Positions 1 to 17,367 of a stretch of DNA of 20,613 nucleotides are shown here, in pieces. Below the pieces are notes generated by a model. The model saw nothing but the letters and a program-made list of their open reading frames with translations, was not told the DNA's origin and did no database searches. The first letter of the stretch is position 1. Every line of letters starts with the position of its first letter. Position numbers and translations under genes: made by a program. Where the stretch lies: positions 1 to 20,613 of IMG/VR virus record IMGVR_UViG_3300028837_001222. The stretch is one strand, 5' to 3'. Source of the DNA: a virus.

Positions 1-873
1 CCATCCATGTAATCCCATCACACGTAATGCTAAACCATTCATCTCAATTCCATATTTCTCTGCTGCTTTAGTAGCTTTGACAGATGGATTAACAATACCT
101 TGAATAGCTAATGCTAAACCTCTTGAGGTCATGTCAAGATGCAAACCATGTCGTGTTGCAGTTGAAAGTGCTGCCATTAATTCTTTAAATTCTATTCCAG
201 CTTGTGCAGCAATTGGAACAACATAACCAAGTGCTTGCTCTAAATCTTGAAATTGAAATTTACCACGTATAACAGATTGAAACAAAATATTAGAAACATC
301 AGTTGCTTGCTCAACTCGCATACCATATGTATTTAAAACAGTTGTAAAAATATCTACAGATGTTCTAATATCAGATAAACCAGCAATACTTGCTTTTGTT
401 GCAGTTGTTAAAAGATTGATAGCATTTTCTGCATCAAACGCAGCAGATAAAATGTCATACATACCCTTAGACATATCACTTGTTGCTTGTCCATACGATA
501 TTGATAAATTCTCTATACCATATGTAAGACGTTCTATTAACGGCAATTGGTCAGCACCTAATATAGTACTAACCTCAGCTATTCTAGTTTCAAATTCACG
601 ATATGCTTTAACAGAATCTTGAATAAACTGTATGAATTTTTGTTGTGCACCCATTACTTGATTTAGCACCAAGTTGTAACCAACGAATCTTAATGCAAGT
701 CCTTTCATTGCTGAACTTTGTGTTTTAGCCCCTGTTGCTCCTCTTGCATGTGCCGCACTCATTTTATTTGTATTATCTCTGATATTGTGCAACTCAGCAT
801 TAACTAGCCTGAGTTCACCGAGAATCATTTTCGCATTAGTTAAATATTGTAGTTCAACTGTTTGTTTTGCCAT
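1..873 (-). CDS. Tail tape measure protein, N-terminal part (runs off the window)
   Basis: I translated this frame from the ATG at 873 and it stays open for 291 codons to the window edge, so the C-terminus is missing. After a helical N-terminus (about 1-75) comes a segment typical of TP901-type phage tape measure proteins: a block around TRIAEVSTILG, then YGQATSDMSKGMYDILSAAF, then DIFTTVLNTYGM and FQDLEQALGYVVPIAAQAGI. In the family this protein sets tail length by spanning the tube lumen and is wrapped by the tail chaperones during assembly. Its start overlaps the stop of the chaperone T frame by one base (TAATG), as expected for coupled translation. The family call is firm; total length and any C-terminal domains cannot be judged. 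Confidence 0.88.
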   Translation of the reverse strand, partial: MAKQTVELQYLTNAKMILGELRLVNAELHNIRDNTNKMSAAHARGATGAKTQSSAMKGLALRFVGYNLVLNQVMGAQQKFIQFIQDSVKAYREFETRIAEVSTILGADQLPLIERLTYGIENLSISYGQATSDMSKGMYDILSAAFDAENAINLLTTATKASIAGLSDIRTSVDIFTTVLNTYGMRVEQATDVSNILFQSVIRGKFQFQDLEQALGYVVPIAAQAGIEFKELMAALSTATRHGLHLDMTSRGLALAIQGIVNPSVKATKAAEKYGIEMNGLALRVMGLHGW

Positions 874-1108
874 TATCTCTGACTTTCCCTTTTAGAAATC
901 ATGTCTTTGGAACTTTGTGGAATGCCCTCTTCTACATATGGTTTTCCACTTTTTATAGAATTACTCTTATTTAAACTTCTAAGAATACTTATGAATCTCC
1001 AATAATCCATATGGAGAATCTCCTGAAAATTTCCCCCTACTTCTAAATAAAGGAAGTTTATAAGTTCTTGGAATCTTTGGAGCTCTTCATCCCAATAGAT
1101 TTTAGTTT
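873..1108 (-). CDS. Tail assembly chaperone, T-frame extension (made by -1 frameshift)
   Basis: In the -1 frame relative to the upstream chaperone gene there is an open frame from 1145 down to a TAA at 873-875. From the probable slip region it adds about 77 residues (starting KIYWDEELQRFQELINFLYL, later MDYWRFISILRSLN and KPYVEEG). The aromatic and charged composition, the position just before the tape measure gene and the frame relation match the lambda G/GT arrangement, in which a minor fraction of ribosomes shift to make a G-T fusion that recruits tape measure and tube subunits. The fusion would be about 190 residues. An internal ATG at 1010 with a GGAG nine bases upstream could alternatively give a short separate T protein of about 45 residues. 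There is no start codon with a ribosome-binding site for the whole T frame, which favours the frameshift. Confidence 0.72.
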
Positions 1109-1450
1109 TTGGAGTGTGCGGGTCTCTAGCTCCTTGCGAAAATCCTTAGAATAAATCCCTTTTCTGCCAGCATCATATACGGCTCTAAACAGATCAATTA
1201 AATCTAGTGGATGCATATGCCTTATTTTTTCCAAAGTACATTCGCCAGTTGTATCTATTGCCGATAAAGTTTCATAGATAACATAGTGTTTAAATTCTTT
1301 TTCCTCTTTATCTTTTGGCATATCTTTCATATCTTCAGCGAGTCTAGCTAATGCTGATTCATGTTTATCAGTTGTCCAATTAGGGATTGCAAAAGCTTTA
1401 CCTTTATTTACAAATGGTAGACTGTAGGGTTTTTTTATTTTTGTTGTCAT
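1058..1450 (-). CDS. Tail assembly chaperone (G-like)
   Basis: A 130-residue, mostly helical, Lys- and Glu-rich protein between the tail tube and tape measure genes, the classical place of the G-type tail chaperone. No motif identifies it; the call rests on position, size and the overlapping -1 frame that continues into a T-like segment. The start is supported by AGAGG eight to nine bases before the ATG at 1450. Residues 73-112 (from LEKIRHMHPLDLIDLFRAVY onward) resemble the helical core of such chaperones. The unshifted product ends with a short polar tail (MKSSKDSKNL). In the family G outnumbers GT and both are lost from the finished tail. Confidence 0.7.
   Translation of the reverse strand: MTTKIKKPYSLPFVNKGKAFAIPNWTTDKHESALARLAEDMKDMPKDKEEKEFKHYVIYETLSAIDTTGECTLEKIRHMHPLDLIDLFRAVYDAGRKGIYSKDFRKELETRTLQKLKSIGMKSSKDSKNL
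1100..1114 (-). promoter_or_regulatory. Probable -1 ribosomal frameshift region in the chaperone gene
   Basis: On the coding strand the zero frame reads CTC CAA AAA CTA AAA TCT (codons 113-118). The shift must occur between the -1 frame stop at 1146-1148 and the zero-frame stop at 1058. Within that interval this stretch has the only A-runs on which a lysine tRNA can re-pair after slipping back one base. It is not a perfect X XXY YYZ heptamer: the P-site codon (CAA or CTA) would mispair after the slip. A weak hairpin (TTGG/CCAA) lies a few bases downstream. The exact slip codon is therefore unresolved. Confidence 0.5.
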
Positions 1451-2925: not shown

Positions 2926-4704
2926 TTAGAGCTCCGTGCAGATGTCGTACCAAAGACAGTATAAAGTTGCTATGTAATGGAACACCACTCTGTGTCCATC
3001 TGTTTCTTCTTCAAGACCATCATCCTCGATATTCATAAAAACTATTCCTTCTGTTATAGATTGATAATAACGAGTTAGGTCATGTAATCTATCTTTTATT
3101 TTTTTGGCAAATTCAGTTCTATCAATATTATCGGTATCTGTAAAGTAGATATGCACCAAGACATAACTTTCCACTTTTCTTGTACTTGCTGCAACATCAT
3201 GCGGTTCATATGTCGTATGTCCAGGGGGTATTTCAAGCTCAATAAATTGCAAATCTGGCAACTGTTCTGATTTAATTTCTTCACTAAGATACATTGGAAG
3301 ATATACTCTATCTCCTTTGGAATCTGTTATATAAATACATTTCTCTAGTTCATCACAATCTTTGTTCACATTCCATAAAGAAACTAGTTGATTACGATAT
3401 GCTTTTCTTGGGTCAAAAGATTCAAATCCACCTGTGACCTCTTCTTTAGTTTTAAACTTCCATATCGGACTTGCTGTGTCATGTGTTCCGCAAGTTGCAT
3501 CATCTTTTGCCACTATTTTCCAGTAGTATGTTTTATCATTATCTAATCCATAAACAGTATAATTTGTATCACCATGATTGCTTAGTATTAACGGTGGTGG
3601 TGATACTGTTCCAAGATATATGTCATATACAAGCGAATCATTTGGATTTGCATCTGCACAATACCATGATAATGTTAAACTTAAATTTTGACCTGTTGCA
3701 TCGTAAACTGGTGTTGGTGTATGTGGTATTATTGGTGGCTCATTTCCAGTTGTAAATGACCATTGTGAACCAGATGTTTCTCCACCTGCATTTTTTGCTA
3801 TTATCTTCCAATAATATAATGTACATGAATCTAAATTATATGGTATTGTATAATCAGATGTTGGGTGGTCTGATTCCACTAATGGTATTGGAATACTTTT
3901 TCCAAAGTAAATATCATAAGTATCTGCATCTGGACAATTCCAATCTAAGTTTTGGTCGTATGAAATACCTGTTGCAGTATCAGCAGGGTCAGGATTACTT
4001 GGTGCAGTTGGTGGGGCTGGTATATCTTGCATTTCTTCTGTTCCAGCACCACCATTCCATCTAAATGTAACTTCTTCTTGGGAAAGTTCTTTATCATAAA
4101 TTACTACTTCATCTAATGTACCATTGAATGGTGCACCAGATGTATAATCCGCAATACGAAAATTAACTGATGTAATTATTGTACCTGTTAACATATTATA
4201 ATATGTTGTGAGTGGTTTATCTATATTATCAACATATATATGAAGTGATGTTGGAACATATCCAGTATCTTTTGTGAAAACTATATGATGCCAAAGACCA
4301 TCGTTATAAAAAGCTGAACCAGTACCAACAATAAGTTTCAATGCTGATGTGGTAGCTACACTAACCCGTATTTCACCATCTGGTCTCATATAAATCATAT
4401 AGCCCCGTGTATTCGCTAAACTAAATTTACTCATAATTACAGTTGATACGCCATAGGAAGTTTTAAACCAACACTCAAGAGAAAATGCATCTGTTCTTTC
4501 AAAACCTGCAATATTACCACAATTAACATATTCATTGATGCCATCAAAATTAAGGCAATTATTTAGTTTACCTACAACCCAATCCCCATCTTCCATGTTA
4601 GCTGTAGTCCCATCTCTACCATGAACAGAGCTATCACTAACTAATACTCCTGAAGATTCATTTAACTTCCAGTGTGCATAAACATTTGGTCTTAGGTCTA
4701 CCAT
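2926..4704 (-). CDS. LamG and Fn3-like decorated neck/tail-terminator-like protein
   Basis: 592 residues in three regions. Residues 5-222 are a LamG/concanavalin-like module: AHWKLNESSG near the start, NFDGINEYVNCG (52-63), FSLECWFKT (74-82), DGLWHHIVFTKD (135-146), YVDN (157-160) and FNGTLDEVVIYDKELSQEEV (193-212). Two Fn3-like repeats follow (about 230-320 and 322-420), each ending in a YYWKI(I/V)AK strand and a W(S/K)F(T/K)T strand. The last part (about 427-592) is alpha/beta and resembles tail terminator or neck proteins: YVLVHIYFTDTDNIDRTEF, a helix KKIKDRLHDL, and a final DGHRVVFHYIATLYCLWYD. Position between the connector and tail tube supports a neck or terminator role for the C-terminus, with a surface-exposed carbohydrate-binding front. 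The fusion is in one unbroken frame. LamG is confident; the C-terminal role is inferred. Confidence 0.75.
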   Translation of the reverse strand: MVDLRPNVYAHWKLNESSGVLVSDSSVHGRDGTTANMEDGDWVVGKLNNCLNFDGINEYVNCGNIAGFERTDAFSLECWFKTSYGVSTVIMSKFSLANTRGYMIYMRPDGEIRVSVATTSALKLIVGTGSAFYNDGLWHHIVFTKDTGYVPTSLHIYVDNIDKPLTTYYNMLTGTIITSVNFRIADYTSGAPFNGTLDEVVIYDKELSQEEVTFRWNGGAGTEEMQDIPAPPTAPSNPDPADTATGISYDQNLDWNCPDADTYDIYFGKSIPIPLVESDHPTSDYTIPYNLDSCTLYYWKIIAKNAGGETSGSQWSFTTGNEPPIIPHTPTPVYDATGQNLSLTLSWYCADANPNDSLVYDIYLGTVSPPPLILSNHGDTNYTVYGLDNDKTYYWKIVAKDDATCGTHDTASPIWKFKTKEEVTGGFESFDPRKAYRNQLVSLWNVNKDCDELEKCIYITDSKGDRVYLPMYLSEEIKSEQLPDLQFIELEIPPGHTTYEPHDVAASTRKVESYVLVHIYFTDTDNIDRTEFAKKIKDRLHDLTRYYQSITEGIVFMNIEDDGLEEETDGHRVVFHYIATLYCLWYDICTEL

Positions 4705-13367: not shown

Positions 13368-13412
13368 CAAGAACACGCCTTAGTAATGTAAAAACAAGGA
13401 TATAGCTAAATT

Positions 13413-13451
13413 CTATCCTCAATAATAATATGTTTGCCATAGTATATAAAG
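13413..13451 (-). promoter_or_regulatory. Leftward archaeal promoter for the structural operon
   Basis: On the minus strand CTTTATATAC (13451-13442) is a TATA box, then GGCAAACATATTATTATTG, then GAGGATAG. Archaeal spacing puts the transcription start near 13420, leaving a leader of about 50 bases before terL. A further TTTATATAAA-like stretch lies just upstream at 13455-13464. The whole 39-base block is a near copy of the rightward promoter at 13508-13546. Confidence 0.65.
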
Positions 13452-13482
13452 TTTTTTATATAAAGAATCATATTGTTCATTT

Positions 13483-13499
13483 TACCAGGAATCTTGGTA
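13483..13499. promoter_or_regulatory. 17-base dyad between the divergent promoters
   Basis: TACCAGGAATCTTGGTA is an almost perfect palindrome centred on A13491: arms TACCA/TGGTA and inner GA/TC, with one mismatched pair. It ends nine bases before the rightward TATA box, where a regulator could block or recruit the transcription factors TFB/TBP. No regulator is identified; the helix-turn-helix protein encoded at 13548 is one untested candidate. Confidence 0.5.
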
Positions 13500-13507
13500 T
13501 TAGAAGT

Positions 13508-13546
13508 CTTTAAATAGTAGAGCAAACATATTATGACTGAGGATAG
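13508..13546 (+). promoter_or_regulatory. Rightward archaeal promoter for the early arm
   Basis: TTTAAATA at 13509-13516 is the TATA box. Expected start of transcription is near 13537, just before GAGG (13539-13542), which sits five bases before the ATG at 13548. This argues for 13548 rather than 13533 as the start of the first rightward gene and gives a very short leader. Confidence 0.65.
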
Positions 13547-13547
13547 T

Positions 13548-14021
13548 ATGACTGTTGCTCAAGAAACTCGTTGGAGAGCCGAACTTGAAATACTCCAAGA
13601 ATTGGGGAAAGTACCTTCATCTAGGGAAATGCAAAAGTTACTCAAAGATAAATATAATATAGAAGCTAATCATAACACGGTCAATGCCGACTTGAAGCGA
13701 GATTTGGAATTTCTTACTAAAGAAGAATACACCAATCAAAAAAATGGTATATTAAGTATGCTAGATACAGAGATTAGTATTGCTCATGGTATAGCTACTA
13801 AAGAAACTGATAGTGAACTTAAACTTAAAGCTATGAATACAGTATCTAAACTATCAAAAACTAAGTCTGAGATTTTAATCAAGTTTAGAAGAGCACAAGC
13901 TAAATTATCTACAGAAGAAAAACCTATTTATAATATATCTATTGGAGAACCAGTAGAAATTGATTTAAAGAAATTCAATAAATTGGAGAAGGATGCAAAA
14001 AATGTTAAAAAAATTGATTGA
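13548..14021 (+). CDS. Terminase small subunit (putative), HTH and helical oligomer domain
   Basis: 157 residues from the ATG at 13548, with GAGG five bases upstream. The upstream ATG at 13533 lies before or at the predicted transcription start. Residues about 8-55 form a winged-helix/HTH-like region (QELGKVPSSREMQKLLKDKY then NHNTVNADLKRDLEFL). A helical middle (ILSMLDTEISIAHGIATKET, SKLSKTKSEILIKFRRAQAK) could oligomerise, and PIYNISIGEPVEIDL near the end gives a short beta segment. This HTH-helix-beta order is common in small terminases, which recognise the packaging site, and the gene is divergent from terL. It could instead be a transcription regulator of the shared promoter region. Confidence 0.55.
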   Translation: MTVAQETRWRAELEILQELGKVPSSREMQKLLKDKYNIEANHNTVNADLKRDLEFLTKEEYTNQKNGILSMLDTEISIAHGIATKETDSELKLKAMNTVSKLSKTKSEILIKFRRAQAKLSTEEKPIYNISIGEPVEIDLKKFNKLEKDAKNVKKID

Positions 14022-14217
14022 TCTTTTGCCTATTAGTAGACGAAGATATATAAAAGATTTAGAAAAAGTTATGATCGTGATAGACGGTTTAACGGAAGCC
14101 GAGGCAAATCATTGTCAAATAGAAATGAGTCTTATTCAACAATCTCAAGTAAATAAAATTAAGAGACCAGCAAATAAAAAAAATACGACAAATGGTAGAG
14201 ACCCTGCATTTCAATAA
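13993..14217 (+). CDS. Small basic protein, unknown
   Basis: 74 residues (71 if the ATG at 14002 is used; GGAGAAGG lies just upstream of both). It begins with KMLKKLIDLLPISRRRYIKD and ends in a basic, Asn- and Lys-rich tail. It overlaps the preceding gene by 29 bases. The middle segment DLEKVMIVIDGLTEAEANHC may be helical. I recognise no family; position suggests an early gene coupled to the small terminase. Confidence 0.55.
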   Translation: MQKMLKKLIDLLPISRRRYIKDLEKVMIVIDGLTEAEANHCQIEMSLIQQSQVNKIKRPANKKNTTNGRDPAFQ

Positions 14218-14231
14218 GGATAGGGATAAGA

Positions 14232-15056
14232 ATGGAAATAAATGTTAAGACAATAAAATTTAAAAAGAAATCTACTTGGTATCATATTATACCAATTGGA
14301 GACATACATATGGGCAATATCGGTTGTGATGTTGCAAAACTTAAAAAATTAGTTGCTTGGATAAAAGAAAAAGATAATGTATATTGGATAGGTATGGGAG
14401 ATTTTTTTGATAGTATTAATTATACCGATAAAAGATTTGATCCACGAACAATTGCACCAGAATTTAGAGATTCACTAGACAACCTTATACCTGAACAAGT
14501 ACATGCTGTTGTAAAAATATTAGAGCCGATAAAAGAAAAATGTCTTGGATTACACGAAGGAAACCACGAAAGAAAAATACGATTAAAATATCACTATAAT
14601 CCAATATATGAAGTATGGAAAGCATTTAACATACCATCAATACCAATACTTAAAGATGCTGCAATAACACGATTACGCTTTGTATTTGATGTAAAATCAA
14701 GAATCAAACCTTCTTATACATATGATATTTTCAGTGTGCATGGTAATGTTGGTGGTAGAAAGGGTGGTGCTAAATTAAATAGGTTAGAAGATATGTGTGC
14801 AAATTTTCAAGCTGATATATATTTAATGGCACATTCTCATATTAAATTAACATCATCAAAATCTCAATTATATGTAGATAAGAATATGAATCTTAAACGA
14901 GCTAAAAAAGTATTAGCTGTTACTGGTTGTTTTTTAAATGGGTATACTGACGGTGCTGGTGGATATTGTGAACAATGGATGCTTTCGCCTACAATGACAG
15001 GAGTGGTCAAAATATCATTACGCCCATTTCAACGAGATTTGCATGTTTCTGAATAA
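14232..15056 (+). CDS. Calcineurin-like metallophosphoesterase
   Basis: 274 residues with all five family motifs: GDIHMGN (D24, H26), GMGDFFD (D57), LHEGNHER (N111, H112), FSVHGNVGG (H170) and LMAHSHIK (H201, H203). It should hold two metal ions and hydrolyse phosphodiesters or phosphomonoesters. Viral relatives are often annotated as DNA repair exonucleases or phosphatases; the substrate cannot be told from sequence. It is placed directly before the replication gene. Start supported by AAGG/GGATAAG just upstream. Confidence 0.88.
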   Translation: MEINVKTIKFKKKSTWYHIIPIGDIHMGNIGCDVAKLKKLVAWIKEKDNVYWIGMGDFFDSINYTDKRFDPRTIAPEFRDSLDNLIPEQVHAVVKILEPIKEKCLGLHEGNHERKIRLKYHYNPIYEVWKAFNIPSIPILKDAAITRLRFVFDVKSRIKPSYTYDIFSVHGNVGGRKGGAKLNRLEDMCANFQADIYLMAHSHIKLTSSKSQLYVDKNMNLKRAKKVLAVTGCFLNGYTDGAGGYCEQWMLSPTMTGVVKISLRPFQRDLHVSE

Positions 15057-15064
15057 GTGATTTT

Positions 15065-15190
15065 ATGACAACTAAGAAGGCAGATGATTCTTTAGATTCT
15101 CATGCAATAAAACGAAAAGACGGTTCGCTTGATGAGAAAGCGGAACACAGGGCAATATTAAAAGAGCTAAAAAGATTAGGTTTAAGATGA
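15065..15190 (+). CDS. 41-residue polar protein coupled to the primase-helicase gene
   Basis: The frame reads MTTKKADDSLDSHAIKRKDG and ends LKELKRLGLR. Its TGA overlaps the ATG of the primase-helicase by four bases (ATGA), a strong sign of translational coupling. Charged and probably helical at the C-terminus. Function unknown. No strong ribosome-binding site is visible; GTGAT lies four bases before the ATG. Confidence 0.6.
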   Translation: MTTKKADDSLDSHAIKRKDGSLDEKAEHRAILKELKRLGLR

Positions 15191-17367
15191 CACTCAAAAT
15201 TCCTGAACAACTTAGGGAAATACAATTTAGATTCATCAAAATACGCCCCAATTCTAAAAAAGCCCTAGAAAAAAATTTCACTGAATCCTATAATTATAAA
15301 TATGATGAAGTAGCTTTTAAACAATACCTAAAAACAGCTAAAAGTTATGGTATATTATGCGGATTCGGAAAACTTGCAGTAGTGGATTGCGATACAGAGA
15401 AACTGGCAAAACATCTTTATATGGAATTACCTGCAACATTTAGTGTTATTACTGGTTCTGGTGGTCTCCATTTATATTACATAATTCCAGATTTGGGCAA
15501 AAAACTGGTGATAGAAGATAATAAAGATGTCCATCATGGCGAAGTTCAATTTAAAGATTTCTATGTATTAGCTCCAGGTTCACTTCATCCAACTTCCAAG
15601 ACACTTTATAAAATAAAAGATGATATAAAAATACAGACTATTACAAAGAAAAAACTTTTTGAAGCTTTAGAACCTTTCCTCAAAAAGAAAGATAAATTTG
15701 TAGAGACTGTAACAACTGGATTGAATTGGGATATAGAGACAATTCTCAAAAAACTTCCTAGTATACAAGGACAACGAGAAACTGATGAAGGAATAGAGCA
15801 TTATGGTTCTCATCCAGTACATGGTTCATCTAAAGATAAAGATGGAGAATATTACGGTTCAAATTTTAATCTAAATCCTACTAAAGGTGTTTGGCATTGT
15901 TATAGATGTAATACAGGTGGAGATGCATTGTCTCTTATTGCAATGTTAAATGGTTTAGTGAAATGTAAAGATTGCAAACCAGGATTCTTTAGCACCAAAG
16001 AAGGTAAAGAGATTTTCCTAAAAGCTAAAAAAATCGGAGCACAGAAATACGGTTTTGAAGATACTCGTTTATTATTATTTGGTGGTGGAAAACGTAAAGG
16101 GGAATTACTGGTACAGAATATTGTTGAATTTATAAAACAAGAATGTCAATTTATAACAGTACGAGATAGCACAGGGAGATTGCCTCATATATATGCTTAT
16201 GAAGATGGCTACTACAAATTATTTGGTGAGGATTTAATTGTACAACAACTGAAAAAGATTTTCAACAATCAGAATATTCCCTACAAGACTCGATATAAAA
16301 ACGAGATTTTGGATTATATTAAAACTGAAAATGTAGTTGATAGGGATGAAATAAATCCACCAAAACATTTATTGAATCTTAATAATGGAATTTATAATAT
16401 AGATACTCAAAAACTTATACGTCATAGTCCAAAATATTATTTCCTTTATAAAATTCCTTGGAATTATAAGCCACAAGCTAAATGCCCAAAGATTATGAAA
16501 TATTTTAAAAGCACTTTGAAGCCTGAATTTATTGAATTAACTCAGGAGATATTTGGATATTGTCTAATGTTTGACTATCGACATGCTGCTATTTTTTATC
16601 TGTATGGAACAGGTGGAAATGGCAAAAAGATTTGGACTAAAATGTTAGAGCATATGCTTGGTGCTAAAAATGTGGCAAATAAATCTATTGATAGTTTAAT
16701 AAGATTCAGATTTACCTCTGCACTTCTTTATGGGAAACTTGCCAATATTTGTGGTGAATTAACTTCATCTGTATTAAGAGACACCGATATGTTAAAAAGT
16801 TTAAGCGGTGGAGATTCCATACAAGCAGAATTTAAAGGGAAAGATGGATTTGATTTCGAAAATAGAGCCAAAATTATCACAGCTTGTAATGCGATTCCCC
16901 GTTGTGGAGATATGACTGATGGATGGTATCAAAGACAATATATAATTCCATTTCTGAAAAAATTCAGACATACTAAGCAGGAAGATACCGAATTACTGGA
17001 TAAGTTATTAGTGCAAAAAGAAATGGAAGGTATATTGGCATGGTCACTCATAGGAATGCATAGACTATTGAAGAATAAACGATTTTCATATCCTATTGAT
17101 AAAGAAGAACGCTATTTAATGTATCGAGAAAATACTAGATATTTTGTGCAAAAATTCTATGCAAAGACGAATGAATTTAGCGATACTCTTAAATCAGACG
17201 AAATTTACGAAGATTATGTTAAATGGTGCGAAAAAAATAGTGTGCCTATTAACAGTAAAAATTCGTTAGGTAGAACTCTCAGTGATATGCATATGACCTT
17301 TGAAAGAATGCTCGAAGAAGGAAATCATAGTTATACAGATATTAGAAGATATATTAAGAGGTTGTAA
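15187..17367 (+). CDS. Primase-polymerase / SF3 (D5-like) helicase fusion
   Basis: 726 residues. Residues 10-165 are an archaeo-eukaryotic prim-pol domain: LAVVDCDT (catalytic D67 and D69), TGSGGLHLYY (H95) and YVLAPGSLHP. Residues 205-255 form a zinc-binding element, HPVH (209-212) and CYRC (238-241) followed by GGDALSLIA, as in CHC2-type primase fingers with His in place of the first Cys; another CKDC is at 260-263. Residues about 330-690 are the D5_N and SF3 helicase: Walker A GTGGNGKK (474-481), Walker B LANICGEL (518-525), motif C IITACNAIP (563-571), and Arg-finger region GWYQRQYIIPF (579-589). The usual Ser/Thr after the Walker A lysine is Lys481. It should prime and unwind viral DNA. 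ATGA start overlap with the preceding small gene. Confidence 0.92.
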   Translation: MTLKIPEQLREIQFRFIKIRPNSKKALEKNFTESYNYKYDEVAFKQYLKTAKSYGILCGFGKLAVVDCDTEKLAKHLYMELPATFSVITGSGGLHLYYIIPDLGKKLVIEDNKDVHHGEVQFKDFYVLAPGSLHPTSKTLYKIKDDIKIQTITKKKLFEALEPFLKKKDKFVETVTTGLNWDIETILKKLPSIQGQRETDEGIEHYGSHPVHGSSKDKDGEYYGSNFNLNPTKGVWHCYRCNTGGDALSLIAMLNGLVKCKDCKPGFFSTKEGKEIFLKAKKIGAQKYGFEDTRLLLFGGGKRKGELLVQNIVEFIKQECQFITVRDSTGRLPHIYAYEDGYYKLFGEDLIVQQLKKIFNNQNIPYKTRYKNEILDYIKTENVVDRDEINPPKHLLNLNNGIYNIDTQKLIRHSPKYYFLYKIPWNYKPQAKCPKIMKYFKSTLKPEFIELTQEIFGYCLMFDYRHAAIFYLYGTGGNGKKIWTKMLEHMLGAKNVANKSIDSLIRFRFTSALLYGKLANICGELTSSVLRDTDMLKSLSGGDSIQAEFKGKDGFDFENRAKIITACNAIPRCGDMTDGWYQRQYIIPFLKKFRHTKQEDTELLDKLLVQKEMEGILAWSLIGMHRLLKNKRFSYPIDKEERYLMYRENTRYFVQKFYAKTNEFSDTLKSDEIYEDYVKWCEKNSVPINSKNSLGRTLSDMHMTFERMLEEGNHSYTDIRRYIKRL

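Follow-up and report, generated by a model that had tools for sequence, protein, structure and literature searches.

The stretch of DNA analysed here, the window, is a virus record of 20,613 bases with a GC content of 33%, a single contig from an uncultivated tailed virus. Gene G (1450-1058, minus strand, as all features below) encodes a protein of 130 aa, probably the first of two tail assembly chaperones, and ends with a TAA at 1060-1058. The tape measure gene (873-1) was recognized by Pfam (PhageMin_Tail, E = 8.9e-26) and by tape measure families of PHROG (best E = 3.4e-34). Between the two, the -1 frame relative to G is closed by a TAA at 1148-1146 and then stays open up to the TAA at 875-873, which overlaps the ATG of the tape measure gene as TAATG. 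The initial annotation had placed G and, under its 3' end, the -1 frame correctly, and the ORF map also confirmed the TAATG. The frame was indeed open and protein-like, its length however had been given as about 77 codons, where we counted 90 (1145 to 876), 88 of them beyond the inferred slip. As had been claimed as well, this frame has no full-length start of its own: the earliest ATG, GTG or TTG in the T domain is codon 44. The T domain (1139-876, 88 codons), supported by its open frame and by codon-phase evidence, would be reached only via a -1 shift, with a predicted G-T fusion of 104 + 88 = 192 aa.

Upstream of G, the ORF at 2450-1503 occupied the place expected for the major tail protein and matched no named family in Pfam or PHROG. 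Terminator-like hairpins (GAGGG..CCCTC) with T-rich stretches were seen at 1494-1480, between G and the gene presumed to encode the major tail protein, and at 6787-6772, after a 446-aa ORF presumed to encode the capsid protein. A similar hairpin seemingly precedes G in L010 and L011. Promoter and terminator scans of the window gave no enrichment over shuffles, and tRNA and Rfam scans found nothing. Amid the tail genes, a 168-aa ORF (2447-2953) resembled by eye an HNH homing endonuclease, with paired CxxC motifs, and had no Pfam match.

Profile scans of viral contigs added 25 contigs in which T follows G, making 26 loci with the window, among which L008/L009, L014/L016 and L058/L059 are near-copies. 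T was found in the -1 frame of G in all 26 loci, while the stop codon of G was differently placed. Over the 18 aligned loci, identity to the window went down to about 42% for T and about 41% for G, and terminase identity among the relatives down to 43%. Whether related viruses keep the overlap had been named as a check by the initial annotation; the layout of G with T at -1 was present in the 25 other contigs and is, judged by comparison, far beyond chance. A few observations on individual contigs may be recorded here. In the relatives L070 and L071, the terminase matches contained one in-frame TAA each, which may reflect an error, a pseudogene or a gene boundary. The relative L084 encodes glycosyltransferases (13375-17214) and, with them, an FrhB/FdhB domain fused to a polysaccharide pyruvyl transferase, perhaps for host-surface modification. 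In L090 (Methanobacterium virus Drs3), an unannotated +1-frame ORF at about 3636-3791 follows the small gene Drs3_00030 and precedes the long ORF Drs3_00031; it is possibly the T domain of that virus, reached through a +1 shift.

Codon phases were compared for the window together with the four relatives closest to it. Ahead of the junction, the fraction of variable sites was 0.58 at the third position of the G frame versus 0.24 and 0.15 at the other two; past the G stop, it was 0.72 at the third position of the -1 frame versus 0.16 and 0.28. In the overlap, variable sites were low in all three phases (0.12-0.24). These patterns show that both G and T are translated.

In the window, the overlap has at its 5' edge, in register, the slippery heptamer G_GAT_TTT (1145-1139; zero-frame codons GAT TTT), the arrangement of a canonical -1 signal. 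The junction N_NAT_TTT_C was invariant in 26/26 loci, and the fusion reads F|S there. Four slip classes were distinguished: G_GAT_TTT in 11 loci including the window, A_TAT_TTT in 8, A_AAT_TTT in 5 and A_CAT_TTT in 2. Loci of the GAT class had AAG, GTG, CTG, GAG or CAG as the codon before GAT, each ending in G. Since the base ahead of GAT was always G despite these five different codons and a share of G-ending codons of 11.7% in the window, it is the heptamer itself that is kept, and the whole G_GAT_TTT appears to be under selection. On the tree of the fusion protein at least seven changes between slip classes were required, so the junction is not one frozen sequence. G_GAU_UUU has been documented as the site where pea enation mosaic virus shifts (PMC5009743), and further RNA viruses have it too. 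As we interpret its name, the 'twoonefour' motif of the predictor PRFect (PMC10274946) would also correspond to this heptamer. The initial annotation had seen no perfect slippery heptamer and had spoken of a non-canonical slip region. The recognized heptamer at 1145-1139 contradicts the former statement, and the latter label is misplaced because the conserved site N_NAT_TTT_C has in the window the form of the known G_GAU_UUU.

The heptamer is followed by a 5-nt spacer, CGCAA (1138-1134), and by a putative stimulatory hairpin (1133-1111) in which GGAG (1133-1130) would pair with CTCC (1114-1111) across a 15-nt loop. The post-slip codon in the window is CGC, rare in this DNA (2.0 per 1000 in codon counts), and it was frequently CGC among the loci. 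The window stem of 4 bp is among the weakest of the set, 18% of control positions fare equally well, and a 98-nt stretch of the window folds no more stably than shuffles (z = -0.06). On its own, the window hairpin would not convince. In most relatives, however, the stem is strong. In 21 loci, a stem of 4 bp or more started exactly 5 nt downstream; the spacer was 4 nt in L013 and 6 nt in L060, L010 had a 3-bp stem at 8 nt, and among the 26 loci checked no hairpin was found at the expected place in L017 and L043. The stem sequence varied: GGGTC-GNRA-GACCC in L014-L016, L018 and L029, GGGC/GCCC in L012 and L021, GGGGC/GCCCC in L020, GGAGG/CCTCC in L039 and L042, GGGCG/CGCCC in L037, L058 and L059, and GCCCGT/ACGGGC in L019. 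An RNA structure 5-9 nt downstream of the slip site, as in canonical -1 signals, was thus seen for the virus family and in weak form in the window.

A 5-mer arm at the 5-nt spacer had its full complement downstream in 16/26 loci, compared to a mean of 4.2 and a maximum of 10 when arms were swapped between loci in 5000 permutations. For 4-mer arms the values were 22/26 against a mean of 10.0 and a maximum of 17. None of the 5000 rounds reached the observed counts, a p value not to be taken literally since the swapping leaves the relatedness among loci in place. Given that swapped arms found far fewer complements, the pairing is not due to composition. A stronger point than the p value, in our reading of the alignment, is that stem positions 2-5 show two or three different Watson-Crick pairs apiece across loci. 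The mean folding energy reached -7.5 kcal/mol only at the position of the hairpin and was about -0.2 to -3 elsewhere. Two other foldings were considered and set aside. RNAalifold on the seven closest sequences proposed a different long pairing without covariation, the short hairpin being seen only with distant relatives. A 6-bp GGAGCU/AGCUCC stem with a longer loop in the window was found in some close relatives only and is not general.

We propose that a programmed -1 ribosomal frameshift joins G and T immediately ahead of the tape measure gene, and put the probability of this reading at roughly 0.93. The comparison of 26 contigs strongly supports the lambda-type shift suggested by the initial annotation, and we very probably deal with a well-supported fresh example of this known frameshift, not with a new mechanism. 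One gene pair would give rise to the short gpG of 130 aa and, where the smaller share of ribosomes shifts, to the longer gpG-T of 192 aa. The ribosome would decode ...AAG GAT TTT in the zero frame and be held by the hairpin past the CGCAA spacer, with tRNAs on GAT and TTT. Both tRNAs would then re-pair one base back, onto GGA TTT, and decoding would resume on TCG in the -1 frame. That the shift occurs in cells, and how efficiently, we infer from the comparison.

The slip region favored by the initial annotation, the A-rich run CAA AAA CTA AAA (1111-1100), does exist in the window, falls within the overlap and contains AAA codons able to slip. Whether relatives conserve its A-rich codons had been named as a check: L007/L002 (CAACAACTC) and L011 (CAAAGATTA) have the run in broken form and distant relatives lack it, whereas N_NAT_TTT_C is invariant. 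On this alignment we rejected the run as the slip site, and a shift taking place there is very unlikely. Still less probable is that T is a separate protein, made from its own start inside the overlap or by re-initiation after G. The ATG at codon 44 in the window, with a GGAG near it, and the overlap of the G stop with T would be compatible with such a start. However, 24/26 loci had no ATG, GTG or TTG from the slip up to the IYW...E motif, which is conserved; the exceptions, a GTG in L015 and an ATG in L016, differ in position, and the conserved protein reaches upstream as far as the FS junction. We therefore rejected an own start for T, no start codon being conserved over the 26 loci; relatives with a separately initiated T and no conserved overlap, which would have spoken against the initial annotation, did not turn up among the 25 contigs.

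A sequencing or assembly error that splits a single frame was the other objection foreseen at the outset, and the window, as a single uncultivated-virus contig, could in itself contain one. It is ruled out by the 25 other contigs with T in the same -1 relation, many of them clearly diverged and with differently placed G stops, and its probability is negligible. Transcriptional slippage can in principle join frames as well, and there is a run of four T at the junction. Such a run is short for polymerase slippage, and the fixed 5-nt spacer, the hairpin and the codon register of NAT_TTT suit a slip of the ribosome, so that we consider a fusion made at the transcript level about as improbable as a separate T.

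The programmed ribosomal frameshift itself might proceed in more than one way. A tandem slip is plausible for the GAT and AAT classes. In the 10 loci with A_TAT_TTT or A_CAT_TTT, the upstream tRNA on TAT or CAT cannot, by the rules of codon-anticodon pairing, re-pair after a tandem slip, so that tRNA-Phe more likely slips there by itself on U_UUU. The two modes are known from work on recoding (PMC8211752). It would be tempting, if tentative, to propose that the slip drifted within the family between a tandem mode (G_GAU_UUU, A_AAU_UUU) and a single tRNA-Phe mode (A_UAU_UUU, A_CAU_UUU) while spacer and hairpin were kept. If true, the family would be a natural series revealing which part of the heptamer is dispensable. 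Somewhat more doubtful is that tRNA-Phe alone slips on U_UUU in the P site throughout, with a C-- codon waiting and the upstream codon of minor importance. The invariance of U_UUU_C, the 10 loci just mentioned and the frequent rare CGC as post-slip codon would agree with this variant; the G that always precedes GAT despite different codons, however, points to a tandem slip in the lineage of the window.

The products of G and T are probably G/GT tail chaperones, since the tape measure gene follows the pair immediately and the model of G weakly matches 2ob9; the second ORF, in addition, overlaps the first in a shifted frame, with no start codon of its own. When the AlphaFold model of G (pLDDT 79) was searched against PDB with Foldseek, no match was significant. 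Several proteins named tail assembly chaperone were among the non-significant viral matches of this model, and after realignment the top solved structure was the HK97 chaperone 2ob9_B (Z 4.4 over 79 residues, 10% identity). This Z is too low to prove homology. The structure search with the T model gave no useful match, the sequence family libraries gave no match to known tail chaperones and nothing useful for G, and weak matches of G to ClpS and to an anti-repressor in these libraries were treated as noise. Homology to G/GT chaperones is nevertheless likely, and from gene order and frame relation we hold with high confidence that the pair works like G/GT.

The window had also been ascribed to a probable archaeal virus, which our data do not support. 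No archaeal provirus or relative was found: scans with the T and terminase profiles of genome contigs, one genome per species for 84,980 species, detected no near provirus, and their two distant matches were to bacterial MAGs at 26-27% only. PCNA was absent from 21 records. Two relatives carry genes for a family A DNA polymerase; for archaeal viruses, family B enzymes are reported and family A ones are not (PMC11348598). The same evidence is no proof of a bacterial host.

The present data bring a family of uncultivated tailed viruses under the lambda G/GT rule, and the comparative evidence for this is unusually clear: the slip core is invariant, the spacer fixed, and the hairpin varies in sequence while its pairing stays. 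Annotators can use it to join two ORFs split by gene callers, and the natural slip variants are a ready set for the question of one- versus two-tRNA slips. Lambda itself slips on G_GGA_AAG, different from the G_GAU_UUU described here, we detected no sequence similarity to its G/GT, and a main conserved element in our loci is a short hairpin set off by a spacer fixed at 5 nt. The tail-gene frameshift is conserved in dsDNA phages according to Xu, Hendrix and Duda (2004), as cited in PMC5009743, and in lambda G binds the tape measure protein while T recruits tail tube subunits (PMC5009743); by analogy, G and T may have lambda-like roles here. The HK97 chaperone (PDB 2ob9) is the best structural match of the G model, yet with 10% identity. 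The identical heptamer, followed downstream by an RNA structure, occurs in RNA2 of pea enation mosaic virus and in further RNA viruses of eukaryotes (PMC5009743), but these rely on eukaryotic ribosomes and make other gene products. Shifts in tail genes were also reported for haloarchaeal viruses, at -1 in HVTV-1 and HCTV-1/2/5, at +1 in HSTV-2 and on G_GGA_AAT in Hardycor1 (PMC8211752, PMC7911831). These resemble the present case in the tail chaperone region concerned and, for several of them, in the -1 direction; they belong to other virus groups, and wherever their slip sequence is stated it differs from ours.
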